This document shows, in pieces, positions 15,708-39,361 of a stretch of DNA of 39,444 bases. Source of the DNA: a bacterium (GTDB lineage: Bacteria; Zixibacteria; MSB-5A5; GN15; FEB-12); the NCBI GenBank assembly GCA_030605565.1, contig JAUWIB010000029.1, positions 1-39,444 of the forward strand, in the 5' to 3' direction. Below the pieces are notes generated by a model. The model was given only the letters and a program-made list of their open reading frames with translations, did no database searches and was not told the origin of the DNA. Each line of letters opens with the position of its first letter. Position 1 is the stretch's first letter. The translations under genes and the position numbers were made by a program.

Positions 15708-15920
15708 ATGGGATCGATGGATCTCGTTCACATATGCGCCTCGGCATTCGCCGCGGTGTTTTTCTTGTTGATGGTGTTGGCCATCGTGATGCGAGTCATC
15801 ATCGTCGTCTTTCCGCAGAGAGAGGCCAAAGCCGATGCCGCTGTCCTTGCAGCCGTTGCTACGGTGGCCGCAAGCGTTTACTCTGGCACGAAGATAACCA
15901 AGGTTGAGGAGATAAAATGA
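15708..15920 (+). CDS. oadG: Sodium-pump decarboxylase gamma subunit-like (OadG)
   Basis: Small single-TM protein (FAAVFFLLMVLAIVMRVIIVVFP) with GGAGAG RBS, overlapping the next gene (AAATGA). Confidence 0.75.
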   Translation: MGSMDLVHICASAFAAVFFLLMVLAIVMRVIIVVFPQREAKADAAVLAAVATVAASVYSGTKITKVEEIK

Positions 15921-17782: not shown

Positions 17783-17795
17783 CAGGGCGCCACCA

Positions 17796-19162: not shown

Positions 19163-19825
19163 CTACCTGACCCTCAGACCGGCGATTTTGACGGCGCCCC
19201 GGTGGTAGCCATCAGGGAACAACTGTTCAAGTTCCTCCAACTGGAGTCCAGTTCCGTCGCAGGTTTCATAAACCATTGGGACGGCGTTGTTCTTCTCCCA
19301 GCTTTCTCGCAGGTATCGTATGACCTTCCAGTGCTTCTCCGTCAATTTCCCGCCGGGTATTTTCATGTTGTAGGCTCTGAATGTGGCGTATTGCTCATCC
19401 CACTCATCAGAATGCACAAGAAACCCGCGCACGTCCGTCTCGTAGGTCTTGTCAGCGGATATCAAGTTAAGGTCCATTGCTGCCGGCGGATAATACGCCT
19501 GCCCCAGATAACCCTCTTTGTAAGTGATGCCGGCCAACTTGCAGGCGCCTCTGAGATACCCGGTCGGGAAGAGTCTCCTCATATCTTTGAGGCGCAGAAT
19601 ACCCCCCATGCGACAGGCATCATAGACCGACGGACACGAACCCGTATCCTCAAAGGTCTTACGAATATAGCGGATGACGTCCCAGTGTTCCTTTGTCAGG
19701 CCACCGGAAATCTTGAGTTGCGCGGACATGCCTTCTGCGAAATCTTCATCCCAGGAATCGAAGATCAACAGGTGCCCCATATTGTCCGTCTCGTAGCTCT
19801 TGCTCTTGTAAGTGAAAGTACCCAT
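19163..19825 (-). CDS. Fused double-domain DsrC/TusE-like protein A
   Basis: Two DsrC-like repeats in one ORF: GHLLIFDSWDEDFAEGM...LTKEHWDVIRYIRKTFEDTGSCPSVYDAC...LFPTGYLRGACKLAG and GFLVHSDEWDEQYA...LTEKHWKVIRYLRESWEKNNAVPMVYETC...LFPDGYHRGAVKIAGLRVR*. Confidence 0.88.
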   Translation of the reverse strand: MGTFTYKSKSYETDNMGHLLIFDSWDEDFAEGMSAQLKISGGLTKEHWDVIRYIRKTFEDTGSCPSVYDACRMGGILRLKDMRRLFPTGYLRGACKLAGITYKEGYLGQAYYPPAAMDLNLISADKTYETDVRGFLVHSDEWDEQYATFRAYNMKIPGGKLTEKHWKVIRYLRESWEKNNAVPMVYETCDGTGLQLEELEQLFPDGYHRGAVKIAGLRVR

Positions 19826-19903
19826 GTTCACTCCTTGGTTCTCATAACCGATTTATTACAGCCTGATGGTCATTAGCTCGGGTCCAACACGATGGGAGTT
19901 GGA

Positions 19904-20596
19904 TCACCTGACCCTCAGACCGGCGATTTTGACGGCGCCCCGGTGGTAACCATCAGGGAAAAGTCGCTCCAGATCCTCCAATTTGAGACTATTGACCTCA
20001 CAGGTTTCATATATCGTGGGAACCTCCCCGGTGATTCGGTACCTGTCTCGCAGAAAGCGTATGATCCGCCAGTGCTTGTCTGTAAGCAGATTCGGCATCC
20101 CCATGTCATATGCCTGACGGAGGGCAAAGTTCTCGTCCCAGTCGTCCGGGTTGGTCAAAAAACCCAGATCGTCAATCTCGTATGAGCTGTTTCGGTACCG
20201 GGACAGGTGATGCTGGAAGTTGTGTTCCTGCCAAACATATTTCAGATAGGCTTCCCTGTGCGTAACCCCCGCCAACTTGCACGCCCCCCGCAGATAGCCT
20301 GCCGGGAAAAGCCGTTTGATATCACCGAGTCCGAGGTCATTCTCTCTGCAGGCCACGTATACCAGAGGGCATGTGTTCATGGACTCAAAGGAGTTGCGCA
20401 AAAAGGAGATCACTTTCCAGTGCTGATTCGTCAGTCCATCTGTGATGCCGATGCCGGGAGCCATCCCCTCGGCGAAGTTTTTGTCCCAATCGTTCGGATC
20501 CATGAGGAAGCCCTTGGAGTCCACCTTGTATTTCCTGCCGCCATGTCGAAAATATTTCATGGCGCCCGAGGTCGCCTCGTTGTCTTGTTTAGCCAT
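19904..20596 (-). CDS. Fused double-domain DsrC/TusE-like protein B
   Basis: GFLMDPNDWDKNFAEGM...LTNQHWKVISFLRNSF...CPLVYVAC...LFPAGYLRGACKLAG plus GFLTNPDDWDENFA...LTDKHWRIIRFLRDRY...VPTIYETC...LFPDGYHRGAVKIAGLRVR*. Confidence 0.88.
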   Translation of the reverse strand: MAKQDNEATSGAMKYFRHGGRKYKVDSKGFLMDPNDWDKNFAEGMAPGIGITDGLTNQHWKVISFLRNSFESMNTCPLVYVACRENDLGLGDIKRLFPAGYLRGACKLAGVTHREAYLKYVWQEHNFQHHLSRYRNSSYEIDDLGFLTNPDDWDENFALRQAYDMGMPNLLTDKHWRIIRFLRDRYRITGEVPTIYETCEVNSLKLEDLERLFPDGYHRGAVKIAGLRVR

Positions 20597-20643
20597 TAAG
20601 CTTCAACCTATCTTTCACCCATGGTCCGGGTCTTTGACCTCAT

Positions 20644-21699
20644 TCAACATATTCTCGGCAGTTGCTCGCCGCTGTGCATGTCCACCATTCGTTCGACGCC
20701 AATGATACTTCTCATGGTAACAACACCGGTCTCCCGGTCGGTTACTTCGCCCACAATCGTGGAGCCGAGGCCGGGGAAACAGGTTCCCAAAATCGCTGCT
20801 GTCCTGTCTGCGTCGGATGCCGGGATGATGACAACAAAACGCCCTTCGTTGGCCACATACATTGGATCGAGACCAAGCAGTTCACAAGCCCCTCGTACAT
20901 CATCGCAAACGGGCACTTTGCTTTCGTCGATACCGATGTGCAGGTCGGATGACTCAGCGATCTCCACCAGTGCTGTAGCCATACCTCCCCGGGTCAGGTC
21001 ACGCAGGCAGTGAATTTCGATCCCCGCCTCGATAAGCTGCATAACCGCCGATGACAGCGGGGCACAGTCGCTCTCTATCGTCGTTTCGAACGATAACCCC
21101 TCACGTTGGGCCATGACGGCAATGCCGTGTCGGCCGACGTCGCCACTGATAATTACCACGTCTCCCGCTCTGAGGGAACCCGGACCGATCCGGAGGTTAT
21201 GGTTCACGGCGCCAACTCCCGCCGTGGTAATGAATACACCATGACCCCGGCCGTGATCGACCACTTTGGTGTCGCCGGTTACAATCCGCACCCCGGACTG
21301 GAGCGCCGCCTGCCGCATCGAGAGAGCTATCCGCCACAGCGATTCGGTGGGAAAGCCCTCCTCAAGGATAAATGACGCGCACAGATACAGAGGCTTTGCC
21401 CCGCACATGGCAAGATCGTTGACGGTTCCATAGACAGCCAATGTCCCGATGTCTCCACCGGGGAAGAAGAGGGGATCGACGACATAAGAATCGGTGGTGA
21501 AAGCAAGCTGGGCTCCTGCTATGTTGAGAAGCGCTCCGTCATGGTGTGATTCCGAGTCCGGATTCTCGAACAGAGGAGCAAACATGTCGTGTACAAGCTG
21601 GTGCATCAACCTGCCACCCCCGCCGTGAGCCATAGAGATGTGCGGATGCTCCGTCAGAGGGAACCGACAAACCGGGCTTCCATCGCCTGATGGTTTCAT
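20644..21699 (-). CDS. hypE: [NiFe] hydrogenase maturation protein HypE
   Basis: [52 protein letters not shown]-terminal PRIC. Confidence 0.96.
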
Positions 21700-22820
21700 T
21701 GGCTTCTACTCGCTTTCATACGCTCAGAATTCTCACTTTGACGACTGTAGCGGTAGTACGCCGCGCAGGCGCCCTCGGATGATATCATGGGAGCACCCAG
21801 AGGTCGCTCGGGCGTGCAACTTCCAGCGAAGGCAGGGCAGTCGCACGGCTTCCTGATCCCCTGAAGGACCAGACTGCTTATGCACACTGAACTGTCTTCA
21901 GCCGGACGATCCGTCAATTCGAATCGTTTCTCGGCATCAAACTCAACGAACTCATCACGAAGGGACAAACCGCCTTTTGGTATAACACCAAAACCGCGCC
22001 AGGTGCGATCGACGACACGGAAGACACGGTCTATCATGTCCCGGGCCACTTTGTTGCCATCAGGTTTGACAGCCCTTGCATACTGGTTTTCGAGTCTGGC
22101 ATGACCCTGCTCCAACTGCGCCACCGCCATGTGAATACCCTGAAGAATATCAACCGGTTCAAACCCGGTGACGATGATCGGAAGATGAAACCGAGAACAG
22201 AGTTGTGCATACTCAGAACAACCCATCACGCTGCAAACATGACCGGGCGCCAGCAAGGCTTGCACCTGACACTCGGGAGAGTTCAGGATAGCTGCAATGG
22301 CAGGCGGGATAAGAACCTGCGCGCACAAGATCGAGAAGTTGCGCAGGTTCTGTTGGTATGCCTGGTATACTACCGAGGCGTTTACGGGAGCCGTGGTCTC
22401 AAACCCAATCGCGAAGAAGATTACTTGCTTGTCAGGATGCTCGCGCGCGATCTTGAGGCAGTCCAGCGGCGAATAAAGCGTGCGAACGTCACCCCCCTGC
22501 GCTTTGACGGACAGCAAGTCCTGCTCGCTGCCGCGAACGCGAAGCATATCTCCAAACGAACAGAAAACGACATCCTCACGTGAGGCCAGAGTTATGGCTT
22601 TGTCGATCAGGTCGGTCGAGGTGACACATACCGGGCAGCCGGGGCCGTGCAGAAGCGTAACCTTGTCGGCAAGCTTCCGGTCGATGCCGTTTCTTACGAT
22701 GGCATGAGTCTGCCCACCACATACCTCCATTACTTTCCAGTGGCCGGCGCCCGCCTCAAGGATAGCTCCAACGAGTTGCGCCGCAATGGCGGGATCACGG
22801 TAATCATCCAGGAACTTCAT
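21696..22820 (-). CDS. hypD: [NiFe] hydrogenase maturation protein HypD
   Basis: [45 protein letters not shown]. Confidence 0.97.
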
Positions 22821-23071
22821 CGACCGCTCTCTTTCCCGGTTGTCGGGAGTTCCAATTGACTGAGATACTCAAGAGTCCTCGCTGCTTCATCGGGGTCGAC
22901 AACACTGATGGCGAAGCCGGCATGTATAAGGACATAATCGCCTACCGTTGCTTCCGGCGCCGCCGACAGATTCACATTTCTCACGATGCCGCCGAAACTG
23001 ACTCGCCCCGACCGCGTGAGAGGAGCGTCGTCTGTTATGTCAACTATCCTGCCGGGAATCGCCAGACACAT
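22817..23071 (-). CDS. hypC: [NiFe] hydrogenase maturation chaperone HypC
   Basis: [13 protein letters not shown]-terminus; [20 protein letters not shown]. Confidence 0.96.
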
Positions 23072-25397
23072 TCTTGTCTCCTTTGTGTTGCCGGCGGCAA
23101 GCCGCCATGATCTGACCGAGTGCTATACCGCCGTCGTTGGGTGGCACGCGCTCGTGTAAGTACACTTCAAAGCCATGATGTTCGAGGGACGCCAGGGCGC
23201 GCTCGGTGAGGTATCTATTCTGGAAACAGCCGCCGGTGAGCACGACCTTGCGCTCACCGACCCTGACGGCGACAGCGGCGGTCATCTCCGCCAGAGTACA
23301 GTGGAACTTTGCGGCAATCATGGCCGGGGTTACTGAGGACCGTAAGTCAGTGAGGATTTGACACAACATCGGCTCCCAGTCGATGACGAATGGTGAGACT
23401 GATGTGTCCAGGTCAAACTCGTAGGTGTCCACCGACCGGATGTTCAAGGCCGCAAACTCCAGCTTCATCGCGGCCTGACCTTCAAAACTCATTTTGTGAC
23501 ACAATCCGACAAGGGATGCGATGGCATCAAAGAGGCGACCGGCGCTCGAAGTGAGAGGTGAATTGATTCCCCTGCCAAGCATCTTCTTGATGGTCTTTAG
23601 CTCCGATTTTCCGAAGGACCTGACCAAGGGCAGGTCATCCATCGATACCGCAGCATCACCAAAGACCTCATACAACAAACTCAGGGCCGAACGGCGTGGC
23701 TCACGGATAGCAGCATCACCACCGGGCAGGCGAAAGCATCGCAGATGAGCGACGCGCTCAAAGGAGTTGTCATTGATTCTCAAGAACTCACCGCCCCAGA
23801 TGGCGCCATCGGTACCAAGCCCTGTGCCGTCGAAGGCTACCCCGAGCAGCGGAGGCTCCAGACCATGTTCGGCCATACAAGACAGAACGTGCGCGTAGTG
23901 GTGCTGAACCGTCACCCGTGGGACATCAAAGCTTGATGCAAACCGGGTGGACTGATAGTCAGGATGCTGGTCACAGACCACTCGACCCGGATTCACATCA
24001 TACATGGACATTAGTGACCCGGCGGTAGTGCCCAAAGTGTCGAAAGTGAGTTTGCTATCCAGGTCACCGATATGCTGACTGACAAAGGCGCGCCTTCCTC
24101 TGGCTATACCGATTGCGTTCTTGAGTTGAGCACCCACCGCCAGACAGTCCGGCACAGGTTCGGGCAGATCAATCACTGTGGGAGCATATCCACGGGCGCT
24201 GCGAAGTACGACCGGACGGTCAGCAATAACACGCACAATCGAGTCATCGACGTGCTGCGCTATGGGACGGTCATGCACCAGAAACAGATCGGCAACTCTG
24301 TGAAGCCGAGCGAGAGCATCGCGCTCATCGGTGCCGATCGGCTCGTCCGACAGGTTGCCGCTGGTGGCCACGATGGGACCGCCCAGGTCAGCCATGAGCA
24401 GATAGTGCAGAGGGGTGTAGGGCAGCATGACTCCCAGGTATGGGTTGTCGGGAGCAACCAGATGCGAGACGTTGCCCTGAGTGGTTTCTGCATAAGGCTT
24501 CCGTTTCAGCAGCACTATCGGCGAGGCGCAGGAGGTCAGGGCAGTCTTCTCCGTTGTTGTCAGTTCACAGTCGTTCTCGACCGACGGCAGGTCCGGATAC
24601 ATCAGCGCAAACGGTTTTTCCGGTCGGTTCTTTCGATCTCTCAGACGGCGCACGGCGTCATCGTTGGTGGCATCGACAATGAGTTGAAACCCGCCCAGTC
24701 CCTTCAGGGCCAGTATCCCGCCCGCCCGTATCAAGTCACAGGCCCGGCGTAGAGCCTGTTCATGGCCGGCTAACGCTTTGCCCGCTTTATCCCACAGTTC
24801 GAGATGCGGGCCGCACTTCGGACATCCGTTCGGTTGCGCATGGAAACGTCGGTTTCGTGGGTCTTCGTATTCCCGACGACATTCGTCACACATACTGAAC
24901 CGTCGCATAGTCGTGTTGGCGCGGTCGTAGGGGAGCGATTCTACGATGGAGTAACGCGGTCCGCAGTTGGTGCAGTTCGTAAACGGGTATCGGTAGCGAC
25001 GGTTGGCAGGATCGAAGATTTCCTCTCGGCAGTCCCGGCAGGTTGCGATATCCGGAAGGATCACGGCGTCAGTTTCGCCGTTGCGGTCACTCTCCCGAAC
25101 GCTGAAACCTGAGTAGCCGACGGGCGTAAGGTTGTCAGCTTTTATGTCATCAATATGGGCCAGAGACGGTTGTTCAGCTACGACGCGATCAAGGAACTGT
25201 CGGAGTCTGTTCTTGTCACCCTCAAGTTCAATCTGTACCCCTCCCAGTGAGTTCCTGACCCAGCCGTTGAGATCGAGGTCGTTGGCCAGTCGATAGATAA
25301 ATGGACGGAAACCGACGCCCTGTACCGTTCCTCTGATACCGAGACGCAATCGTGAGGGCTGATCGATCTCGGTAACATTAGCAGCCTTCGGCGCCAA
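23040..25397 (-). CDS. hypF: Carbamoyltransferase HypF
   Basis: Acylphosphatase domain (GTVQGVGFRPFIYRLA), zinc fingers (CRDCREEI, CTNCGPRYSI, CDECRREY, CPKCGPHL), YrdC-like and Kae1-like domains; TTG start at 25397. Confidence 0.96.
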   Translation of the reverse strand: MAPKAANVTEIDQPSRLRLGIRGTVQGVGFRPFIYRLANDLDLNGWVRNSLGGVQIELEGDKNRLRQFLDRVVAEQPSLAHIDDIKADNLTPVGYSGFSVRESDRNGETDAVILPDIATCRDCREEIFDPANRRYRYPFTNCTNCGPRYSIVESLPYDRANTTMRRFSMCDECRREYEDPRNRRFHAQPNGCPKCGPHLELWDKAGKALAGHEQALRRACDLIRAGGILALKGLGGFQLIVDATNDDAVRRLRDRKNRPEKPFALMYPDLPSVENDCELTTTEKTALTSCASPIVLLKRKPYAETTQGNVSHLVAPDNPYLGVMLPYTPLHYLLMADLGGPIVATSGNLSDEPIGTDERDALARLHRVADLFLVHDRPIAQHVDDSIVRVIADRPVVLRSARGYAPTVIDLPEPVPDCLAVGAQLKNAIGIARGRRAFVSQHIGDLDSKLTFDTLGTTAGSLMSMYDVNPGRVVCDQHPDYQSTRFASSFDVPRVTVQHHYAHVLSCMAEHGLEPPLLGVAFDGTGLGTDGAIWGGEFLRINDNSFERVAHLRCFRLPGGDAAIREPRRSALSLLYEVFGDAAVSMDDLPLVRSFGKSELKTIKKMLGRGINSPLTSSAGRLFDAIASLVGLCHKMSFEGQAAMKLEFAALNIRSVDTYEFDLDTSVSPFVIDWEPMLCQILTDLRSSVTPAMIAAKFHCTLAEMTAAVAVRVGERKVVLTGGCFQNRYLTERALASLEHHGFEVYLHERVPPNDGGIALGQIMAACRRQHKGDKNVSGDSRQDS

Positions 25398-25403
25398 GAG
25401 CCT

Positions 25404-25670
25404 TCACCCTTCCGCCACTTCGACGCTATCCAATATTATGTCCTGAGCATGAGGGTCAAAGTTGTCCTGAAGAACCTCGACCTCGAGCCTCGCACCTTCC
25501 GCTACCGTGCCGGCCACGGCAATATCGAAATGTTCGCGGAGGTGGTCGGGCGAGATCTGGGCCAGGGCGCCAAGTTTCACCTTGACCCCGATCACTTTGT
25601 CGGCTCCGTTTTCTTCAGCGATGGTTTTGACCTTGCTCAGCAGGTCCTTTAGAAGTGAAGATTCATGCAT
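25404..25670 (-). CDS. hypA: HypA-like nickel metallochaperone lacking the zinc-ribbon
   Basis: MHESSLLKDLLSKVKTIAEENGADKVIGVKVKLGALAQISPDHLREHFDIAVAGTVAEGARLEVEVLQ then DNFDPHAQDIILDSVEVAEG* with no CxxC pairs. Confidence 0.8.
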   Translation of the reverse strand: MHESSLLKDLLSKVKTIAEENGADKVIGVKVKLGALAQISPDHLREHFDIAVAGTVAEGARLEVEVLQDNFDPHAQDIILDSVEVAEG

Positions 25671-26160
25671 TGTCACCACCTGTCACTTTGTGCCTGGTCA
25701 GACTTTCGATATCCTCGACGATACGTCCAATGATCTTGTTGGCGCTTTGCCGGACCTCCGGCGTCAGGTCGATACCGGCTGAAAAACTCTTACCCTCAAT
25801 GCCGTACACTATCAGTCCACGAGGAAGCCGATTGAGAACCCTGGCCAGTTCGATTACCTCGTTGACGGAAATCGAATGAGTCGACAACCCTGAGAATAAG
25901 TTGGAAGGGATAGACTCGCACAGCGCATCGAAGTGATATGTCGTACCCGGAGGGGCTCCGGAAGAAGCGCAGTCAATCACAAAAGTATGGTCCGAGTCGG
26001 CCCAGGCATCGATAAGCGCAAAACCGTCGCCGATTCCCTCAACAACTCTCACGCCGCTGAGGGCAAGGCTCTCAATCTGCCTGGCGACATACAGGCCGAT
26101 GCCATCGTCCGACCGGTAGGCGTTGCCGATGCCGACCACCGTTATGGAGTATTCTTCCAC
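25663..26160 (-). CDS. Hydrogenase maturation protease (HyaD/HycI/HybD-type)
   Basis: VVGIGNAYRSDDGIGLYVARQIESL, GDGFALIDAWADSDHTFVIDCASSGAPPGT. Confidence 0.92.
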   Translation of the reverse strand: MEEYSITVVGIGNAYRSDDGIGLYVARQIESLALSGVRVVEGIGDGFALIDAWADSDHTFVIDCASSGAPPGTTYHFDALCESIPSNLFSGLSTHSISVNEVIELARVLNRLPRGLIVYGIEGKSFSAGIDLTPEVRQSANKIIGRIVEDIESLTRHKVTGGDNA

Positions 26161-26175
26161 TGAGCGTGTCCTTTC

Positions 26176-27465
26176 TCAATCCCGCTTGATATCGAGTTTG
26201 AGGAAATGGCACGAACAGGAAATACAGGGATCGTAGTTGCGTATCACCTGCTCACACTGCCAGGTGAGTTTCTCGTCCGTCAGATCGAGGTTCTTCTGCA
26301 CGAACTGACGAAGGTCTACTTCCATGGCCTTCTGGTTCTGCGACGTGGGAGGAATGATTCTGGCGTCTTTTATGATCCCGGCGTCGTCGATCTCATAGCG
26401 ATGATAGAGCAGTCCGCGTGGCGCTTCAGTGCATCCGTGCCCGACCCCGGCCTTAGGCAGCACTTCAACATATGGTTTGTCGGGAGCTTTGTACGCCTTA
26501 ACGATCCTCAACGCTTCGTGGCAGGCGAACACCGTCTCCACACTCCGCACGATGATACTCTTGAACGGATTTGTGCAAACCTCCGACAAACCGGCTTCCT
26601 TAGCTGCTTTTTGCGCCACCTCCGGCAGTCGGTCGAAGTTGTTGCAATACCGAGCCATTGGTCCAGCCAGGTAGTCGTCTCGCTCTTTTACTTTCGCCTG
26701 CAGCGATGTCGAATGCGGTACGTGGATCTCCTCAAAAGTGTCCAGGAACTGGTCGGTGCTGATGTCGATCCCCTTGTTGGAGACTATCCTGCCTTCGGTG
26801 ATAGGGTACTCGTCAGGATGTCGCAAGGATACAAACTCATAGTCTCTCTCGAACTCGGGGAAGGATAGGGTGGAGGTAAAGCGGACCGTTTCAAGAGATG
26901 CCTCCAGCGCCCACTGGAGAGGCTCGACGAATCGGAGGATATCCTCTTTCGTTGGGACTTTGTAGAATCCCCCGACGCGCGGGTTCACCGAGTGTATCTC
27001 TCGACCGCCGAGGAGCACCATCAACTCGTTGCCGATTTTCTTGAGCTTCAGACCCTGAGTGACGACATCCGGGTGGTCTTTGGCCATCGTTATAGCATCT
27101 TCGTAACCCAGGAAGTCGGGAGCATGGAGCATGTAAATATGAAGCGCGTGCGATTCAATCCATTCACCACAGTAGATGAGTCTGCGCAAGTCTCGGAGCG
27201 GTCCCGAGACGGTGACACCGCAGACTGATTCCATCGCCTGTGACGAACTCATCTGGTAAGCGATCGGACAGATGCCGCAGATACGAGCCGTGATGTCGGG
27301 TGCTTCGGTGAATCTTCGACCACGCAGTAAGGCTTCGAAGAATCGCGGAGGCTCGAAAACGCTGAAGCGGACATCAGCTACCGTGTTGTCCTTGATCTTG
27401 ACGTAGAGCTTCCCCTCTCCTTCCACACGGGCCAGGTAGTCGACCTTGATGGTTCTACTTTTCAT
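26176..27465 (-). CDS. hydA: [NiFe] hydrogenase large subunit, group 3b-like (sulfhydrogenase alpha)
   Basis: [22 protein letters not shown]1 motif [15 protein letters not shown]2 motif DPCISCSCH with C-terminal tail FLKLDIKRD; start at internal ATG 27465. Confidence 0.94.
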
Positions 27466-28234
27466 GCGCCTCGCTCTCCTTTCGGAACGGCTCCGCATAG
27501 GCATTGAACCCCCGGAACATTCTGACAATATCGTCTGACGGAACCTGCAACCGTTCAAACCAGGCCGCCAGCGATTTGGTATTCGGGCTTTCCATGGGAC
27601 CGAAGCATCCGAAGCAGCCCCGGTTATAGGACGGGCAAAGGGCGCCGCAACCCATCTGCGTAACCGGTCCCAGACAGGGAGTCCCGGTGGATACCATCAC
27701 GCAGACATTTCCCTTCATTTTGCATTCCATACAAACGCTGTGCGTGCCGATGTTCGGCTTGCGGCCATTGAGAGTAGCGCTGATGAATTCCACCAGTTGG
27801 TACTTGTTGATCGGGCAGCCGCGGAGTTCGAAATCAACAAATACATGATCGGCGATGGGGGTCGACTTGTTAAGCGTTTTGATATAAGCAGGATTGGCGT
27901 ACACGATGGAAACGAAATCGTTCACGTCGGCGAAATTGCGTAGCGCCTGAATCCCTCCGGCGGTGGCGCAGGCGCCTATCGTCACCAGACACTTCGACAT
28001 TCTGCGAATCTTATGGATCCGCTCTTCATCGTGCGGCGTGGTGATGGACCCTTCCACCAGAGAGATATCGTAAGGTCCTTTCATTACCGCCCGGGACGCC
28101 TCAGGGAAATTCGCAATAGTGACTTCTTCAGCTATGGCCAGCAACTCATCTTCGCAGTCCAGCAGGGATAGTTGACAGCCGTCACAGGAGGCGAACTTCC
28201 ACACGGCCAGTTTTGGTTTTTTTACGGCAGCCAT
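27455..28234 (-). CDS. hydD: [NiFe] hydrogenase small subunit (sulfhydrogenase delta)
   Basis: [56 protein letters not shown]...[30 protein letters not shown]. Confidence 0.95.
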
Positions 28235-28235
28235 G

Positions 28236-29105
28236 CTACATTTCTCGCTTGGTGAAAATGTCTTTTATGTCGGCGTAACAGTAGACAGGGCCATCCTTAC
28301 ATACGAACGTTGGTCCCAGTTGGCAATGTCCACACAGTCCTATGCCACACTTCATATTGCGTTCCATGCTGATGTAAATGCGGTCATCAGCCACGCCACG
28401 CTTCTGCAATTCCATCACAGCAAACCGCATCATGATTTCCGGACCACATACCATTGCTATGCAGTTCTGCGGGTCGAAGGGGGACCTTCTGACGAGTGAG
28501 GTCACAACGCCAACATTGCCGCGCCAGGCGCCGGTTGCGTGGTCGACAGTCAGATGCGCTTCCAGGTCGAAACGAGAACGCCATTTCTCAAGATCTTTAC
28601 GGTAGAGAATATCCTCTGGAGTTCTTGCACCGTACAGCAGAACAATCCTGCCATACTTCTCGCGACGGGTGAGCAGGTAGTGAATCATCGGCCTTAGCGG
28701 AGCCAGACCGATACCACCGGTCAGCAACACTACGTCCTGATTCTCTACCTTATCAACGGGCCAGCCTTTTCCGTAAGGTCCGCGAACTCCCAAGCTATCA
28801 CCTACTTTGAGCTTTCTCATAGCTCTTGTAACCGTTCCCACCTCACGGGTGGTATGTACTAGTATTTCTCTTCTGGCCGGGTCACCGCTAATCGAAATCG
28901 GCACCTCACCCACGCCGTACACATAGAGCATATTGAACTGTCCGGGTTGAAATGAAAAGTCGGCCTCGCCATCCGGTGGTTGTAGTATTAGCGAGAACGT
29001 ATCCCCCAGGTCCCTGATTATGCGCTGAATCTGCAGCGGCCGCACTAACATGGGATCGGGCTGAGTCCCGGTGCCTGAGTGCTTACTTGTTTGTTGAGTT
29101 GCCAT
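28236..29105 (-). CDS. hydG: FAD/NAD(P)-binding sulfhydrogenase gamma subunit
   Basis: [56 protein letters not shown], 2Fe-2[26 protein letters not shown]. Confidence 0.95.
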
Positions 29106-29550
29106 AAATATCCAACAATTGTAATCTGGTTGCCTCCAGGCGTTCCGCAATGATGGCCACGAACCGTCTCATGACTTCATAGCCGAGATCATGATCTTCT
29201 TCGCATTTCTCGCGAAGGCATTTGCCGTCAAGAGCAATAGCCCTGGTCAATTCCACCGCCCGGGCATCGAAATGCCAGCGGTATGGCGGCACCAGCCACG
29301 ACCAGCCCAGGATTTCCCCGGCTTCCCGTGAGCGAATCATGATCGGTCCTTTCTGGGGAACATGCGTCTCGATGAGAACCCGACCTTGCCGGATGAAATA
29401 AAAGGCGTCGGCTTCCTCACCCTCACGGATAATGAACTCCCCTGACTTGAAGACTACGTTCGAAGCGCAGCCGACCAGCAGTTTGAGATGCTCTGTATCC
29501 AAACCTTCAAGGAATGGATGCTCTCTGAGAGTCTGCTCCAAATCTCTCAT
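29083..29550 (-). CDS. Cyclic nucleotide-binding (CNB) domain protein without DNA-binding domain
   Basis: CNB fold signature FKSGEFIIREGEEADAFYFIRQGRVLIETHVPQKGPIMIRSREAGEILGWSWLVPPYRWHFDARAVELTRAIALDGKCLRE; no HTH. Confidence 0.9.
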   Translation of the reverse strand: MRDLEQTLREHPFLEGLDTEHLKLLVGCASNVVFKSGEFIIREGEEADAFYFIRQGRVLIETHVPQKGPIMIRSREAGEILGWSWLVPPYRWHFDARAVELTRAIALDGKCLREKCEEDHDLGYEVMRRFVAIIAERLEATRLQLLDIYGNSTNK

Positions 29551-29586
29551 AATGGTTATCCTCGTTCTATGGCCGAAGCCATGCTT

Positions 29587-30717
29587 TTACTCCGTCACCG
29601 TTAATTGCCGTGCTTCCTCCGTGATATCGATACCGACCGGACACCAGGTGATGCAACGCCCACATCCGACACATCCTGACATCCCGAACTGCTCCTGCCA
29701 GTGCACTAACTTGTGCATCATCCACTGCCGATAGCGTGAAGTGACACTATTGCGTATGCTGCCGCCGTAGATGTAGGAATAATCCACAGTGAAACAGGAA
29801 TCCCACCGCCGCTGTCTTTGGGCGTGCTGCCCGGTGAGATCAGTACTGTCCTGCATGTTGGTGCAGAAGCAGGTCGGGCAAACCATAGTACAGTTGCCGC
29901 AGGCCAGACATCGCTCGGCTATCGCTTCCCAATGAGGGTCGTCGAATTTCTCGTTCAGCAGTTTTCCGATGTGTTCGGAGTCAATAGTGCGAGTCATGCC
30001 GGCGGCAGCTCGGTTGAGTTCCTTTTGCGCTGCCTTAATCTCCGATTCCTTCGGCTGTTTTACCGGAAGTTTGTCAACGAGCTTTTTTCCCGCTTTTGAA
30101 CCAGGCTCCACAATGAAATAGTGCCGGTTTGAGACACACATCTCAGTCAGGGCCAGATCGAAACCGGAGGTCGCTTTGGGTCCTGTCTTCATGGAAGCGC
30201 AGAAGCAGGTACCGCCGGGACGCACACAATTGACCGCCACCACGAAGACGTTCCGCCGTCGCTCCTGGTATGAGTTGTCGATATACTGACCCTGGCTGAA
30301 TACCTTGTCATGGATGGCCAGGGCGGCAAGTTCACAAGAGCGAACACCGATCAGGGCGCGCTTGATCTGGTCGGGCTCCGGTTGAATAACCTTGAAACCG
30401 TTGCCGTCCCGAGTGGCCTCCCAGAGCTTGTTTGTCGGTGGGTGAAGGAACCTTCTCCAGGACTGCGAACCGATAGTGTAACCAAAAAGTGTCTTCTTCT
30501 TGTCTTTCACCAATCGGTATTTGCCGGGCTCACACTCGTCAACCCAGCCGACAGGAAACTCATCCACAGCATGAATCCTCTCGTAGACAATAGCGCTGTC
30601 CCTGACAGTTGGACCCAACAGTTCGTACCCACTTTCCGATAGCGCATCAAGGAGACTCTGAAAGTTCTTTCTCTCCAGTACGACAACATGCTTGTCCGGC
30701 AACGTTATCTCGGTCAT
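29587..30717 (-). CDS. hydB: 4Fe-4S sulfhydrogenase beta subunit (HydB/AsrA-like)
   Basis: Two ferredoxin-type motifs CLACGNCTMVCPTCFC and CVGCGRCITWCPVGI; first gene of the hydB..hydA block. Confidence 0.92.
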   Translation of the reverse strand: MTEITLPDKHVVVLERKNFQSLLDALSESGYELLGPTVRDSAIVYERIHAVDEFPVGWVDECEPGKYRLVKDKKKTLFGYTIGSQSWRRFLHPPTNKLWEATRDGNGFKVIQPEPDQIKRALIGVRSCELAALAIHDKVFSQGQYIDNSYQERRRNVFVVAVNCVRPGGTCFCASMKTGPKATSGFDLALTEMCVSNRHYFIVEPGSKAGKKLVDKLPVKQPKESEIKAAQKELNRAAAGMTRTIDSEHIGKLLNEKFDDPHWEAIAERCLACGNCTMVCPTCFCTNMQDSTDLTGQHAQRQRRWDSCFTVDYSYIYGGSIRNSVTSRYRQWMMHKLVHWQEQFGMSGCVGCGRCITWCPVGIDITEEARQLTVTE

Positions 30718-30821
30718 GGTGGATCACTCCTCGCATTGTGGCGACCTGGTACATACAGCATAATGGTATTCATCCTCAAAAAGCTATTTGAAACTGCAAG
30801 CGTATGATGAAATCATGGTCA

Positions 30822-31700
30822 TCAGAACTCCATACCTCCGGCTATCTCGAGAATAATATCTCGTTCCCGCAATATCCCCACCAGTTCTCCATCATCCATC
30901 ACCGGCAGGTTGATCACGTGGTGGTGGACCATGAGATGTATCGCCTTCATGATGGGGTCGTGTATCTCTACAAACACGAGTTTATCCATCAACTCGTGGA
31001 TATTTCGTTTGCCGATCAGTTTGCATTGGGCCATAAACATGCCGGTAAAGAAGGTTGTATAGGGAGAGTCTTCGAGGAATGGAGGCAGCACTAACTTAAG
31101 CATGTCAACGAAGCGGATCAACCCCACGAACTTCTCGCTACGGTCGTAAACCAGGGCCGAGCGAACCTGGCCGGCCTGCACCCCCTCCACCACCGGCTGG
31201 TAGAACGCCTCCCGCAGTCTGGCAATAGCATCAGAGACGGGTTCGTCTACATAGAGTCGGGGATAGCGTGATGGGGGCGCCATCAGTTCGGTAATGGTCC
31301 GCTCCCGCATCGGTTTTTCCATGTCTCGATCCAACAGCGTACGGATGCGTTTGGCAAGCTGCTCCATGTCGATCGGCTTTTGCAGGAAGTCGACGATATC
31401 CAGCTTGATTCCGGCCATAGCGGCATCGAAATCCCCGTGCCCGGTAAGGATGATTACCGGGAGGGTAGCGTCGATCTCCCTGATCTCTTGCAGTGTTTCG
31501 ATACCACCCATTCCCGGCATCTTGAGGTCTAAAATGACCACGTCCGGGCGCTCGAAATTTATTGCCGTCAGGGCGTCTGCTCCGTCGGCGACATCTGTTA
31601 CGGTGAATCCTCGTCTGCCCAGCGCTGTCGCTGTGGCCAGTCGGAAGTCATCTTCATCATCCACCAGGAGCAGCTTGAGCGTGGTATGTTCCATATCCAT
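30822..31700 (-). CDS. Response-regulator receiver (REC) fused to a tandem CBS domain module
   Basis: REC: LLVDDEDDFRLATATALGRRGF...PDVVILDLKMPGMGGIETLQEI...VIILTGHG...FLQKPID; CBS pair from ITELMAPP to LVGILRERDIILEIAGG; RBS AAGGAG. Confidence 0.9.
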   Translation of the reverse strand: MDMEHTTLKLLLVDDEDDFRLATATALGRRGFTVTDVADGADALTAINFERPDVVILDLKMPGMGGIETLQEIREIDATLPVIILTGHGDFDAAMAGIKLDIVDFLQKPIDMEQLAKRIRTLLDRDMEKPMRERTITELMAPPSRYPRLYVDEPVSDAIARLREAFYQPVVEGVQAGQVRSALVYDRSEKFVGLIRFVDMLKLVLPPFLEDSPYTTFFTGMFMAQCKLIGKRNIHELMDKLVFVEIHDPIMKAIHLMVHHHVINLPVMDDGELVGILRERDIILEIAGGMEF

Positions 31701-31721
31701 TAGTTTCTCCTTTTCCAACAC

Positions 31722-33572
31722 CTATCCCATGGACGGCAGGTCACCAAAACCGAGCAACGGCCAGTACAACATACTGAGTAACATCAGAACCGCGAAAGCT
31801 AAAACGACGCAGATTATTCCCACGCGCAGGAAGTCTTTCGCTGAAAGATAGCCGCTTGAGTAAACTATGGCATTGGGGGGCGTCCCAATAACCAGCAGAT
31901 AAGCAAATGATGAGGCACAGGCCGTGGCCAGGCCGATGAACGGCACCAGGGTTGTTCCGGGCTCGGCTACGGCGGCCATGTTCAGCGTGATTGGTCCCAC
32001 CGCCGCTGCGGCTGGACCATCCGCCATCAGGTTGGTCATTATCGCTGTTACGGCACTGCCGGTACCAAGCAGGGCCGCGCCGGCCTTGATACCGATTGAC
32101 GCCATGCCCTCGACTACCGAGCGAGCCATCCAGTAAGCTCCCCCTGTCTGGTCAAGGATGCGACCGAAGATGATCGCTCCGGCGTAGAGCCAGACGACAC
32201 CCCAGTCGACTTTCTCCTGATAGTCCCGCCAGTTGACAACTCCACACAACAGGTAGGCCACCGCTCCGGCGATGGCAATCACTCCAATGCCGAGGCGAAC
32301 GCCGATCAGGTCCAGCAGGATGTTCTTCTCGGTGATCCACCCCATCAACATCAACGCGAATATCGAGACCGCAATGATTTGCTTTCGATTCCAGCCCCCC
32401 ATGTGGCTGATGTCCTGTTTCAGAGAGTCCAGGGCCGGGCGCAGATCCTGTATCTTTGGTTTGAATCGCCAGTTGATTACGACCCACAAGAGCGGCATCA
32501 TGATAAGCACGAACGGCATGCCATACATTATCCACTGCCCGTAGCCTATCGTAATCCCGAACATATCTTCCATGTAGGTCATCATTATCACATTGCGGGC
32601 GCCGCCGGAAGGTGAGCCGAAGCCACCGATGTTGCAGGCCATAGCGATTGTGATCATCATCATTTTGGCCAGTTCTTTGTCCTCGGGATTCTTGCTCGAT
32701 AAGCTGTTGTGATACAGAATCAAGCCAATAGGCAGGAAAATCGCGGCCAGGGCATGATCCGAGATGAATGAAGCAGAGGGGGCGATCACCAGAATCATTA
32801 TGGCTGTTACCCAGCGAACGCTCGGCTTCGCCAGGTAGCGGAAAATGAGCAGACAAATACGTTTGTCGACTCCCGTCTTGACGAACGCCGCGGCGAACAT
32901 CAGGCTTCCCATGATAAACCAGCAGGCGTCGGACCAAAACAACGAAGCAACTTCTCGACGGGTGACGATTCCTGAGAACACTAAAATCAAACCGATACAG
33001 AAGGCCACTCCGGGCAAAGGGATCGCCTCCGTCACGAAGCACACGACCACGAAGGCCACCATAGCAATACACACGCGGATCTGTTTAGCGGCTTTGTCCA
33101 CCTTTTCTTGTTGCGCAGGTGTCAGCATGGTATAGGTGAGTTTCTCGAGCCTGAGTTCGCGACCATTCAGCAGTAGTTCCCTCACCCTGGTCTCATCCAG
33201 AGATTCCAGCAGGGTGCGGTATTGCGTGAAGTGCTCTTCATGTCCCGTAATCCCCATCTTTTGCAGGGATTTAGAACCGCGCTTGAGTACCGTCTCTTTG
33301 CGGGATACTCCCTGGACCATACACCCCTCAAAGGCTCGGACAGTTAGCACCTGCCACTGCTCGACATCCTTGAATGGTTTGTCGAACAACTCCTGAGAGT
33401 AGAAGTCGAGCACGTAGGTCTCACCCATCTGATACTCGACGGCCACATCCAACATGCTTTTGGGGATGGGAGCTATCAGAATAAGGACAAAGAGTGCGAC
33501 TGCGATTCCAAATCGCTTGTAGTCGATGTACTTGTCGTAAGCAGAGGCTTTCGCTGAAGGACTATCTGCCAT
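31722..33572 (-). CDS. DASS/SLC13 family anion:Na+ symporter with large N-terminal insert
   Basis: TEAIPLPGVAFCIGLILVFSGI, SFISDHALAAIFLPIGL, NIGGFGSPSGGARNVIMM, AYLLVIGTPPNAIVYSSGYLSAKDFLRVG; about 130 extra residues after TM1. Confidence 0.92.
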   Translation of the reverse strand: MADSPSAKASAYDKYIDYKRFGIAVALFVLILIAPIPKSMLDVAVEYQMGETYVLDFYSQELFDKPFKDVEQWQVLTVRAFEGCMVQGVSRKETVLKRGSKSLQKMGITGHEEHFTQYRTLLESLDETRVRELLLNGRELRLEKLTYTMLTPAQQEKVDKAAKQIRVCIAMVAFVVVCFVTEAIPLPGVAFCIGLILVFSGIVTRREVASLFWSDACWFIMGSLMFAAAFVKTGVDKRICLLIFRYLAKPSVRWVTAIMILVIAPSASFISDHALAAIFLPIGLILYHNSLSSKNPEDKELAKMMMITIAMACNIGGFGSPSGGARNVIMMTYMEDMFGITIGYGQWIMYGMPFVLIMMPLLWVVINWRFKPKIQDLRPALDSLKQDISHMGGWNRKQIIAVSIFALMLMGWITEKNILLDLIGVRLGIGVIAIAGAVAYLLCGVVNWRDYQEKVDWGVVWLYAGAIIFGRILDQTGGAYWMARSVVEGMASIGIKAGAALLGTGSAVTAIMTNLMADGPAAAAVGPITLNMAAVAEPGTTLVPFIGLATACASSFAYLLVIGTPPNAIVYSSGYLSAKDFLRVGIICVVLAFAVLMLLSMLYWPLLGFGDLPSMG

Positions 33573-33703
33573 CAGTTCCTACTCCATGTTGACTGTTGGT
33601 CGTTGATCGCGGCCTGGAAATTTTCGTCCCATTGCTTGGGGTCCAAAAGAAAGCCGTCGGAGTCAAGCGAGAGCTTCGCATTGGAGCTTCTACCGGCACT
33701 CAT
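33572..33703 (-). CDS. Mini-DsrC: 43-aa ORF holding only the DsrC N-terminal motif, overlapping the DASS start codon (TGATG)
   Basis: RBS AAAAAGGAGAGATC then MSAGRSSNAKLSLDSDGFLLDPKQWDENFQAAINDQQSTWSRN*; not in the supplied ORF track because it is under 60 aa. Confidence 0.75.
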   Translation of the reverse strand: MSAGRSSNAKLSLDSDGFLLDPKQWDENFQAAINDQQSTWSRN

Positions 33704-33765
33704 GATCTCTCCTTTTTCATGCAGTCTTGACGACTTTGCACCTGATGCGTGGTGGTCATGGTTAT

Positions 33766-34422
33766 CTACCTGGCTCTCAATCCTGCGATCTTGACCGCTC
33801 CCCGGTGGTACCCATCAGGAAACAGCCTCTCCAATTCGTCCAGTTCCAAACCGTTATGTTCGCAGGTTTCAAATACGGTCGGGACTTCGCGATGCTCCTG
33901 GTAGTAGCTCCGCAGGAAGTTGATTATCTGCCAATGTCTCTCCGACAGACCGCCGGGCACTTTCATTTCCGAGGCCTTACAAACGGCAAACTGCCGGCTC
34001 CAATTGTGCGCTCGAACTAGGAAGCCGTTGGAGTCGATCTCATAGGTCTTTTCCGGTGACGTGGAGGCGACCTCATTGAGCCCATGCTCAACCCAAGCGT
34101 ATTTCAGGTAGCTCTCCTTGTATGTGATGCCCGCCAGTTTGCAGGCTCCCCGCAAGTAACCAGTGGGAAAGAGATTCTTCAATTCTGTCAATCGCAGGCC
34201 ATTTAATTTGCAGGTCTGATAGACTAGTGGACACCTGCCGAGTTCCTCGTATGTCTTGCGAATGAAGCGGATGACCTCCCAGTGCTTGGTGGTGAGACCG
34301 TCAGAGATACCCATTCTGGGCGCCATCGCCTCGACGAAGTTCTCGTCCCACTCGTCGCTGTTCAGCAGGAAGCCTCCGGAGTCTACCTGATAAGGTCTGT
34401 CATTCAGTATCACTTCTGCCAT
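33766..34422 (-). CDS. Fused double-domain DsrC/TusE-like protein C
   Basis: GFLLNSDEWDENFVEAM...LTTKHWEVIRFIRKTYEELGRCPLVYQTC...LFPTGYLRGACKLAG plus GFLVRAHNWSRQFAVCK...LSERHWQIINFLRSYYQEHREVPTVFETC...LFPDGYHRGAVKIAGLRAR*. Confidence 0.88.
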   Translation of the reverse strand: MAEVILNDRPYQVDSGGFLLNSDEWDENFVEAMAPRMGISDGLTTKHWEVIRFIRKTYEELGRCPLVYQTCKLNGLRLTELKNLFPTGYLRGACKLAGITYKESYLKYAWVEHGLNEVASTSPEKTYEIDSNGFLVRAHNWSRQFAVCKASEMKVPGGLSERHWQIINFLRSYYQEHREVPTVFETCEHNGLELDELERLFPDGYHRGAVKIAGLRAR

Positions 34423-34455
34423 GTGAGTCACTCTCCTCCGACTGATTTCGTCATG

Positions 34456-35313
34456 TCAGTCCGGATACCTCCTGCGGATATCCTGAATAAGCTCCGCTTG
34501 TTGCTGTTCAACCTGGCTTTGTCGATGCTCGAACAGCCGACGGATCGTCGCCGCCAGTTTCTCAACATCCGGCGGTTTCTCCAGGTATTCATGAGCACCC
34601 TGCTTGATTGCTTCCACGGCTGTGACGTATGACGGGTGACCTGTAAGCATTATCACCTGGACACTGGGGTAGTACGTCTTTATTCGCCGCAGCACCTCAA
34701 GACCGTCCATGCCCGGCATTTTGATATCCAGAACAACCACGTCAACCAGCTTCTCCTTCAGGAGCGTCAGACCCTGTTCGCCGCTTTCGGCTGTATCCAC
34801 ATCTAAATTGCGGCGTTCAAGCACACGCTTCATCGAGTCCAGGAACCTGACTTCATCATCAATGAGTATCACCCGCACGGGGACGGAGGAGTCCGGCGGC
34901 GGCGGCGGTTCACGATCCTCGCTTTCCCTTTGTTTGAATCGGACCACCACTTCGCGAATACGTGCTACCATGTCGTCCATGTCGATCGGTTTTGACAGGT
35001 AGTCGGCGATACCGTCTTTTGACGTCTGAAAGGCATCATCGATAGATGAGTGACCGGTCAGGAGAATTACCGGCAGGTTAGGATACTTCCTGCGAATGAT
35101 CCTGAACACTTCGATGCCGTCGATATCAGGCATCTTGACATCCAGCACGATGACATCGTACTGCTTTGCGTCCACCATCTCCAATGCTGTCACACCATTG
35201 GGGGCAACATCAACCTCCAGACCTCTTCGCTGCAACGCCTGTGATGAGGCGGTCAGGAAATCCTCTTCATCATCAACGAGCAGGACTCTGCTTTCTTCGT
35301 TGTTTTCCATCAT
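34456..35313 (-). CDS. Tandem receiver (REC-REC) response regulator without output domain
   Basis: VLLVDDEEDFLTASSQALQRRG...VIVLDVKMPDIDG...LLTGHSS...LSKPIDM and VILIDDEVRFLDSMKRVLERRN...VVVLDIKMPGMDG...MLTGHPS...LEKPPD. Confidence 0.93.
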   Translation of the reverse strand: MMENNEESRVLLVDDEEDFLTASSQALQRRGLEVDVAPNGVTALEMVDAKQYDVIVLDVKMPDIDGIEVFRIIRRKYPNLPVILLTGHSSIDDAFQTSKDGIADYLSKPIDMDDMVARIREVVVRFKQRESEDREPPPPPDSSVPVRVILIDDEVRFLDSMKRVLERRNLDVDTAESGEQGLTLLKEKLVDVVVLDIKMPGMDGLEVLRRIKTYYPSVQVIMLTGHPSYVTAVEAIKQGAHEYLEKPPDVEKLAATIRRLFEHRQSQVEQQQAELIQDIRRRYPD

Positions 35314-35323
35314 CAGAAATCTC

Positions 35324-37000
35324 CTACTCTTGCCCGGGTGGCTCCAACCGAAGCATGATATGCATGGCTGTGCCGTTTCCTTGTTCGCTCTCGGCTCTCA
35401 TGCCGCCACCCCACGACTGCACGATGCCATAACAGACCGACAGCCCCAGCCCCGTCCCCTGGCCAACCGGCTTGGTCGTATAAAACGGTTCAAAGACACG
35501 CTCAAGGTCTTCTTGCGGAATACCGGTACCGTCGTCTACTATCTGGAGATGCAGTCGGCCCTCTTCCCGAGCAGCCCGGACGGTGACCGTTCCCCCTTGC
35601 GGCATGGCATCGATGGAATTATTGATCAGGTTCACCATCACCTGCTCAAGTTCCACCGGATCGACCATGGCGCGGGGAAGGTTTTCCTCTATTTCAGCCA
35701 CAATTTCTATGTTTCGCACTTTGGCGCGACGTTCCAGGAGGCGAATGATCTCGGAAAGACGCGGAACGATATCGGTAGGCTTCACCTGAGACTCGCGCTT
35801 GCGTCCGAACTGAAGCATCTTACCGGTGATACCTGCACAGCGCTGGATCTGTGTCTTGCATCGCCGGAGTGATTCCTGAATCTGTTCACGTGTCGGTGTA
35901 TCGGCTTCGGACTCTGACAGCAGGTCGGCAATGTTGGTCTGCTCGGCACTCATGATGGCCAGTGGGTTGTTGATCTCGTGCGCCAGGCCGGTGGCCAGTT
36001 CACCAACCGAGGCCAGTTTGGCCGACCGGATAAACGCCCTCGACATCTCTTCGCGCTCAGCATGGGCTTTATTGATTTGTCCGGTAAGGTGCCAGGTGGC
36101 GAAAAATGTGGTTATGATGAGAAGCGCAATGGCTACAGCAACCACCAACGTCCAGTCAGCTATCGCCTGGTCGACGGTCGCTTGAACAAATGCCAGATCC
36201 TGTTGAGCCACCAGCAACCAGCGATTGTCATTGATCCAGGTAGTTGCTTTGATCCCTTCCGATCCGTGGATATCCACCCGTTCTTCTCTTACTCCGCGGT
36301 GGACGTCAGTCAGGGGACCGAGCGCTCGGTCAAGGAGCGATCCGCCACGAGGTGTAGTCTGGTAAACCCCCTGGCGATTCAGAATATAGACATCGCTGCC
36401 CGGCCCAAGTTCACTCGTCTGCACCAGCCTTTCAAACTGATCGCTGTTGATGGTGGCTCTGAGAATCCACGGCTCACCATCGGCGGCTACCTTCTTCACC
36501 GCCACGATACAGTGCGGTACCTGCCGGTACCCGAGAAAAACATCGCTGACGTACGCCCCCGAGACCATCACTTCCTTGAACCAGTCCGCCTCACGGTAAC
36601 TCAGACCGCGAAGCGCATACGGCCCCACGTATCCTACATGGTCTCCCTCGAAGTTGAAAACGCCCAGATCGACAAACCCCTTGTTGCTGGAACTGTTCAG
36701 ATCAGCTAATAGTTGGCGCAATCGTTGTGGGTCACTGATCTCTGTCAGCGAATTCGACTCGGCAGCCAATTGGAGCAGATGAACCCGCTCCTCAAGATTG
36801 GCCTCGATAGCCTTCCCATGGCTATGAACAAGGTTTCGCATAACCTCTAACGACTTCTGTTCCAACAATTCGCCGAAAACGACCCAGGAACCGAACCCTG
36901 CCAGGAACAACGGCATCAAAGCCGCCACCAGAAGCACCGCTACAATCCGCCAGCGTAACGTCTTGCCGGTTCCCATTATGTGGCTCAGGCCGGTAGTCAT
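35324..37000 (-). CDS. Cache-domain sensor histidine kinase
   Basis: Periplasmic Cache-like sensor between two TMs; H-box SVGELATGLAHEINNPLAIM; N-box VNLINNSIDAMPQGG; G-boxes DDGTGIPQEDLERVFEPFYTTKPVGQGTGLGLSVCYGIV. Confidence 0.95.
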   Translation of the reverse strand: MTTGLSHIMGTGKTLRWRIVAVLLVAALMPLFLAGFGSWVVFGELLEQKSLEVMRNLVHSHGKAIEANLEERVHLLQLAAESNSLTEISDPQRLRQLLADLNSSSNKGFVDLGVFNFEGDHVGYVGPYALRGLSYREADWFKEVMVSGAYVSDVFLGYRQVPHCIVAVKKVAADGEPWILRATINSDQFERLVQTSELGPGSDVYILNRQGVYQTTPRGGSLLDRALGPLTDVHRGVREERVDIHGSEGIKATTWINDNRWLLVAQQDLAFVQATVDQAIADWTLVVAVAIALLIITTFFATWHLTGQINKAHAEREEMSRAFIRSAKLASVGELATGLAHEINNPLAIMSAEQTNIADLLSESEADTPTREQIQESLRRCKTQIQRCAGITGKMLQFGRKRESQVKPTDIVPRLSEIIRLLERRAKVRNIEIVAEIEENLPRAMVDPVELEQVMVNLINNSIDAMPQGGTVTVRAAREEGRLHLQIVDDGTGIPQEDLERVFEPFYTTKPVGQGTGLGLSVCYGIVQSWGGGMRAESEQGNGTAMHIMLRLEPPGQE

Positions 37001-37080: not shown

Positions 37081-37098
37081 ATAGCAAGACCCTTGCCA
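37081..37098 (-). promoter_or_regulatory. Sigma-54 promoter upstream of the histidine-kinase operon
   Basis: TGGCAAGGGTCTTGCTAT on the minus strand: GG-N10-GC, close to TGGCACG-N4-TTGCW. Confidence 0.75.
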
Positions 37099-37211: not shown

Positions 37212-37250
37212 ATCTATCGAGAGTTGACAACGTGGTGCACAGGAGATAAG

Positions 37251-37404
37251 AGCCTGTTGAGAAAGTCCCCATTCCGGTCATTGCGAGCGACCGCAGGGAG
37301 TGCGGCAATCTCTCCCTCACGGTCTACCAACGAATTGAGATTGCCACAGCCACGCGAAACGCATGGCTTCGCAATGACGGCTTCCGGCCTTTTTCAACAA
37401 GCCT
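37251..37404. mobile_element. MITE-like palindromic element directly upstream of the sigma-54 activator gene
   Basis: Outer inverted repeats AGCCTGTTGAGAAAG / CTTTTTCAACAAGCCT and inner GTCATTGCGAGCGA...TTCGCAATGACGG; partial copy at 8524-8640. Confidence 0.75.
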
Positions 37405-39287: not shown

Positions 39288-39361
39288 GGATATGAATAAG
39301 AAAAGAGGCGCTTCGGGATTTTGTGTGGGTAAAACGTTCCAGATAGAGTATTCTATCTGAC

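Follow-up and report, generated by a model that had tools for sequence, protein, structure and literature searches.

Why should the operon of a cytosolic hydrogenase carry several doubled members of the DsrC family, together with a set of signalling genes that runs into it? The question is raised by a run of about 18 kb in the 39,444-nucleotide stretch analysed here (the window), which is contig C113 of a Candidatus Zixibacteria metagenome-assembled genome (MAG) of 3.39 Mb and 96% completeness, and in which three tandem DsrC proteins (A, B and C) accompany a group 3b [NiFe] hydrogenase, its maturation genes and a two-component and transport cassette. An initial annotation, made from the sequence alone, had proposed a sulfur relay into the hydrogenase. 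We instead favour, tentatively, the reading that tandem DsrCs are thiol- or persulfide-responsive adaptors or regulators coupling sulfur status to cytosolic hydrogenases, and rank it ahead of a carrier role in cofactor biogenesis, then of a DNA-binding regulator, and last of a direct relay.

The description of A, B and C as double DsrC proteins held, the Pfam DsrC model (PF04358) matching each of them twice (138-145 bits each). An AlphaFold2 model of tandem DsrC C has two confident DsrC domains joined by a flexible linker (pLDDT 86.8), and Foldseek matches this model to D. vulgaris DsrC (2v4j_C) with a TM score of 0.86 by target length; comparison with congeners shows purifying selection on all three proteins (dN/dS 0.11-0.47). 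What sets the family apart is its cysteines. All of 92 sequences have a cysteine at the domain 1 CysB position (C96), with further conserved cysteines at C66 (96%) and C73 (90%) in domain 1 and C189 (98%) in domain 2, and in 87 of 90 the CysB position of domain 2 is Val, Leu or Ile. As to the penultimate CysA, a Cys at CysB+11 of domain 1 was found in 3 of 90 sequences, none was found in the tail of domain 2, and the window's three proteins have neither; domain 2 mostly ends 3-4 residues past AGL, with no C-terminal arm. Sulfur is bound in Allochromatium DsrC solely at the penultimate cysteine (PMC3397948). The three proteins are a distinct DsrC subfamily and, with that cysteine gone, are as judged from sequence not canonical sulfur carriers.

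As labelled in public records, the family occurs in Zixibacteria, Desulfobacterota, Acidobacteria, Abyssobacteria, Chloroflexi, Gemmatimonadota, Ignavibacteria, Electryonea and Bacteroidetes. Nearly all records are MAGs; the cultured Desulfobulbus elongatus DSM 2908 has two copies, neither beside a hydrogenase. A plasmid search returned TusE-type matches only, and literature searches, mostly without subscription papers, turned up no account of tandem DsrC, nor of any DsrC within hydrogenase operons. Tandem DsrC is a doubled form of a known family, previously unremarked. Loci L071, L072 and L073 hold a divergent tandem subfamily with Cys at CysB in both domains, accompanied in L072 and L073 by an HdrD/DsrK-like gene and by one single DsrC-like gene that has CysA alone.

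The association with hydrogenases extends well beyond the window. The 60 nearest relatives, the window's own genus excluded, have 33 tandem DsrC loci, and at 6 of these a NiFe large subunit is encoded no more than 10 kb away, where chance would give 0.32 (P 1.2e-6); in the same relatives the count for canonical DsrC is 0 of 28. The initial annotation had staked its proposal on fused DsrCs recurring with group 3b hyd and hyp genes in several lineages, and they do both co-occur and co-localise with them. The hydrogenases adjoining tandem DsrC are of group 3b, group 3c (Mvh-Hdr), Hox-type and, once, [FeFe] group A6, in several phyla. The 3c-linked copies adjoin HdrA-MvhD; at L105 and L115 tandem DsrC accompanies a NiFe enzyme and a HoxEFU-like set; and in Abyssobacteria SURF_17 (L092:751-10966) consecutive genes encode an [FeFe] hydrogenase of group A6, a receiver, a pair of tandem DsrCs, a kinase and the HydG maturase. 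Further hydrogenase-linked loci are L137/L116, L138 and L139, L093 (labelled Desulfobacteraceae), and L122, L126 and L132 (labelled Ignavibacteria/Bacteroidetes). The commonest neighbour is hypB, hypE, hypA or the protease gene, usually 11-50 bp off.

This association was probably made several times, because the insertion points differ in operons whose gene order otherwise agrees (ahead of hydB, behind the protease gene, between the protease gene and hypF, or following hypE or hypB) and because copies A, B and C of the window do not group together in the family tree but occupy three parts of it. DsrC B falls in a 16-row clade of which 9 rows stand beside hydrogenase or hyp genes. A single ancestral linkage for all the adjacency was considered and rejected, since the 3b label would have to change 8 times on the tree, no fewer than 3 of these by well-supported branches.

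Co-occurrence was counted in 111 genomes of the phylum, 30 with tandem DsrC, 59 with a 3b HydD and 42 with dsrA, the genome-wide counts resting on search-tool results. Tandem DsrC accompanies dsrA in 26 of 30 genomes (P 1.3e-10; by genus 6e-7) and 3b hydrogenase in 25 of 30 (P 1e-4; by genus 0.002), and within dsrA genomes its link to 3b persists, though weakly (P 0.02), all these values being only partly corrected for phylogeny. Conversely, 34 of the 59 genomes with 3b have no tandem DsrC. The two species of the window's genus that are without tandem DsrC (G001, G002) are also without 3b HydD.

The features of the locus, by position in the window, are as follows.

19163-19831, minus strand: tandem DsrC A (PF04358 twice, 138.9 bits; separate paralogue clade; dN/dS 0.18 against a congener)
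19904-20596, minus strand: tandem DsrC B (PF04358 twice; 47 bp downstream of hypE)
20644-21699, minus strand: hypE (open reading frame, ORF; hyp order kept in other 3b operons)
21696-22820, minus strand: hypD (ORF; operon synteny)
22817-23071, minus strand: hypC (ORF; operon synteny)
23040-25397, minus strand: hypF (ORF; operon synteny)
25404-25679, minus strand: truncated hypA, N-terminal half only (TIGR00100 positions 1-67 of 116)
25663-26160, minus strand: hydrogenase maturation protease (TIGR00072 above cut-off)
26176-27486, minus strand: hydA, group 3b [NiFe] large subunit (ShyA/HydA best models; start picked within a longer ORF)
27455-28234, minus strand: hydD, small subunit (sulfhyd_HydD and ShyD models)
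28236-29105, minus strand: hydG, FAD/NAD(P) subunit (ShyC, HydG and PRK08345 models)
29083-29550, minus strand: stand-alone cNMP-binding-domain protein (PF00027)
29587-30717, minus strand: hydB, Fe-S subunit (sulfhyd_HydB and ShyB models)
30822-31721, minus strand: REC-CBS, a receiver with a CBS match and no output domain (PF00072 and PF00571)
31722-33572, minus strand: DASS anion transporter (TIGR00785 above cut-off)
33572-33703, minus strand: mini-DsrC, a 43-codon ORF or remnant (partial DsrC match under cut-off)
33766-34431, minus strand: tandem DsrC C (PF04358 twice, 144.7 bits; AlphaFold2 pLDDT 86.8; match to a PDB DsrC)
34456-35313, minus strand: REC-REC, without output domain (PF00072 twice)
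35324-37000, minus strand: sensor kinase, dCache-HisKA-HATPase (Pfam)
37083-37098, minus strand: sigma-54 (-24/-12)-like promoter TGGCAAGGGTCTTGCT, 83 bp upstream of the kinase start
37423-38382, plus strand: divergent putative sigma-54 activator, AAA and Fis-type helix-turn-helix (HTH) with no receiver (PF00158 and PF02954)

Every gene named by the initial annotation is thus present, all on the minus strand from 37000 down to 19163 with spacings of -32 to +104 bp. The gene run stood as drawn, but its upper limit did not, the unit reaching past 37000 to the sigma-54-like promoter and the divergent activator. Apart from A, B and C the genome has a single DsrC, of canonical type, on contig C62, which also carries dsrA.

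The regulatory genes, called a multi-input system by the initial annotation, proved to be a conserved unit, with orthologous cassettes across genera of the phylum in the order activator (divergent), kinase, REC-REC, DASS, REC-CBS. In these other genera the activator orthologues (57-68%) are likewise divergent from the kinase, and the DASS proteins are 71-79% identical. REC-CBS has orthologues in 11 of the 111 genomes and the kinase in 14; every one of these 14 has 3b hydrogenase, and tandem DsrC is present in 12 of them (P 1.4e-6). The promoter-like site is near-consensus, is the top-scoring sigma-54 site of the window and is identical in two congeners. Of 12 cassettes examined, 9 have a sigma-54-like site at the matching place, where random stretches average 0.25 of 12; these are all 9 that have the divergent activator, and the 3 that lack it have no such site.

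The layout of the window is repeated in a genome of the same class and a different family (G109, family f17), where the cassette (activator 61%, kinase 62%, REC-REC 59% and REC-CBS 60% identical; DASS reduced) is followed by a porin-like gene, then hydB to hypE, with a tandem DsrC 40 bp past hypE. Behind the cassette lies, in G102, a 3c operon of the HdrA-MvhD type and, in G087, a 3b operon that has decayed; elsewhere the cassette stands without a hydrogenase operon. The decayed operon (L166) no longer has hydG, hydD and hydA and keeps only part of hydB; a different contig of G087 encodes a 3b HydD.

Two members of the run can be set aside. The mini-DsrC exists as an ORF, but its 43 codons cover only about the first 30 positions of the DsrC model, below the Pfam cut-off, and we rejected it as a working part since it is missing in three congeners along with most of the DASS gene. 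Nor does DASS qualify as an essential part, being internally deleted at the same junction in three genomes (G003, G005, G006) and separately reduced in G109. Both are deleted in congeners and dispensable. At the congener loci L038, L040 and L042, and at L159, the internal DASS deletion, apparently made twice independently, leaves the rest of the cassette intact.

Taken together, the 18 kb most likely form one sigma-54-controlled transcription unit, read as a single transcript if the promoter-like site is active. The dCache kinase would signal via the output-less receivers REC-REC and REC-CBS to the separate, receiver-less sigma-54 activator, phospho-transfer being routed through a split DctB/DctD-like system that was perhaps originally tied to the DASS anion transporter. 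The cassette would then have been joined to a cytosolic hydrogenase operon, here of group 3b, in the window's genus and a few others. Tandem DsrCs, by thiol or persulfide sensing, would report the sulfur or redox status of the sulfite-reduction pathway and tune the expression, maturation or activity of the cytosolic hydrogenase, possibly through contact with the enzyme itself or with Hyp proteins.

Several observations weigh against an adaptor or regulator. Most tandem DsrC loci outside the genus have no such surroundings, hydrogenase or hyp genes lying within 5 kb at 16 of 69 and a two-component system at 11 of 69; two of the 14 kinase-bearing genomes are without tandem DsrC; and the co-occurrence values carry the partial phylogenetic correction given above. 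We identified no DNA-binding or receiver-binding motif in tandem DsrC, and its structural likeness to HTH proteins is weak. The pTM of 0.49 means that the model does not fix the relative orientation of the two domains. Finally, a cysteine desulfurase fusion and the NifS-SelD neighbours of some copies speak for transfer of sulfur or selenium and not for signalling.

These last neighbours bear on the rival that survives best, though we still consider it unlikely: that tandem DsrC accepts persulfide or selenium from a cysteine desulfurase on a non-canonical cysteine and delivers it during maturation of hydrogenases or of other Fe-S, Mo or Se enzymes. In an Acidobacteria MAG (L112:742-2610) a cysteine desulfurase (TIGR01977 above cut-off) is fused in frame to a tandem DsrC, the fusion gene being preceded by an Rrf2 regulator on a contig that also holds a canonical DsrC. 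A NifS-SelD fusion gene adjoins tandem DsrC at four Zixibacteria loci (L047, L050, L052 and L061, three of them with a SIR2 gene), SelB lies about 1 kb away at several Desulfobulbus loci, and MrpORP and APS (adenylylsulfate) kinase are near others, so that copies remote from any hydrogenase, too, have sulfur or selenium chemistry close by. The position of copies directly beside hypB, hypA, hypE or the protease would also suit a carrier. On the other hand, Allochromatium DsrC is persulfurated only on the penultimate cysteine that tandem DsrC lacks (PMC3397948). The desulfurase fusion is one case in one MAG, with none in the other loci fetched, and most 3b operons are without tandem DsrC. We know of no sulfur-delivery step common to [NiFe] and [FeFe] maturation. 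Selenocysteine in the Desulfobulbus tandem proteins, hinted at by the nearby selB, was discounted, the frames being open without TGA. The fusion and the NifS-SelD neighbours nevertheless keep a persulfide link open, and the adaptor or regulator we favour may respond to persulfide.

A transcription regulator whose two domains imitate an HTH dimer seems improbable. Many dispersed paralogues do lie beside unrelated genes, some of them divergently transcribed, and there is weak similarity to the LexA DNA-binding domain; DsrC itself reportedly binds a dsr promoter in Allochromatium. The proteins are, however, mostly mildly acidic (median pI 6.1), and structural matches to DNA-binders are not significant. 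Least probable of the four is the relay of the initial annotation, in which tandem DsrCs hand sulfane sulfur or a disulfide to the 3b sulfhydrogenase (or to HdrABC-type partners) and couple H2 oxidation to sulfur reduction, for although tandem DsrC adjoins 3b operons, co-occurs tightly with dsrA and in its 3c-linked copies sits beside HdrA-MvhD, and although canonical DsrC is reported to interact with the cytosolic FlxABCD-HdrABC complex (PMC10504309), the relay is unsupported because CysA and the C-terminal arm are missing, because 3c, Hox-type and [FeFe] enzymes are linked as well, hydrogenases not known to reduce sulfur among them, and because most 3b operons do without tandem DsrC.

The hydrogenase itself was correctly named a sulfhydrogenase: its subunits fit the sulfhydrogenase/group 3b models best (ShyA/HydA, HydB, HydD and HydG), with scores below the NCBI equivalog cut-offs, the closest solved structure to HydA is sulfhydrogenase I alpha (E 1e-68), and the Ni-binding motifs RICGIC and DPCISCSCH can be read in the HydA translation. 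The hypA gene is likewise present, but in a form without the Zn half (88-91 amino acids) that is conserved in congeners and is the sole HypA match in the genome. No HypB above the family cut-off was found in this 96% complete genome, and with half a HypA nickel insertion may be different, or a contig may be missing. The cNMP-binding protein was rejected as a DsrC-specific partner; its gene is a near-constant member of the phylum's 3b operons, whether or not they contain tandem DsrC. Outside the run lie a biotin carboxyltransferase and the beta subunit of a Na+-pumping oxaloacetate decarboxylase (15917-18917) and a TauE/SafE family exporter (38501-39295), and the kinase/activator intergenic region (37250-37400) is repeat-like, resembling sequence near 8550-8634, possibly a dispersed repeat.

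It is possible, and we put it forward with more reserve than the adaptor role itself, that tandem DsrCs form an undescribed and widespread class of thiol or persulfide signalling or delivery proteins, which several phyla encode in the operons of cytosolic hydrogenases unrelated to one another (3b, 3c, Hox-type and [FeFe]), coupling sulfite-reduction status to H2 metabolism, partly via output-less receivers and a split sigma-54 system. This touches the question of how sulfate and sulfite reducers swap H2 uptake for H2 release once sulfur acceptors run out: a DsrC derivative that has CysB and other cysteines, has no carrier cysteine, and sits in unrelated hydrogenase operons is a candidate for the missing coupling. 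The family is testable because the cultured D. elongatus has two copies.

The whole system is made of known parts in a new combination: the DsrC family, a group 3b hydrogenase and a split DctB/DctD-like sigma-54 system. Tandem proteins share with DsrC the fold and PF04358, keep CysB in domain 1 and occur mostly in dsrA genomes, but have two domains, no penultimate CysA, no domain 2 C-terminal arm and the extra conserved C66, C73 and C189. They share a superfamily with TusE (TIGR03342), in which CysA is present and CysB usually absent (PMC3397948). Tandem DsrC is the reverse, with CysB kept and CysA missing. RspA-type DsrC-like proteins, on which we found no paper, are single-domain, are without C-terminal cysteines and have been suggested to be regulatory; they resemble tandem DsrC in the loss of the sulfur-carrying cysteine and the suspected regulation, and differ in having one domain. 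The operon matches group 3b sulfhydrogenase operons (HydBGDA) in subunits, order and hyp genes, and unlike the usual ones adds tandem DsrC and the sigma-54/two-component/DASS cassette. DctB/DctD systems control sigma-54 transporter promoters, and the window likewise has a dCache kinase, a predicted sigma-54 activator, a sigma-54-like promoter and an anion transporter; it differs in that receiver and AAA-HTH are separate genes, the activator being AAA, lid and HTH_8 only where DctD has a receiver within the same protein, in its extra REC-CBS, and in being joined to a hydrogenase operon.

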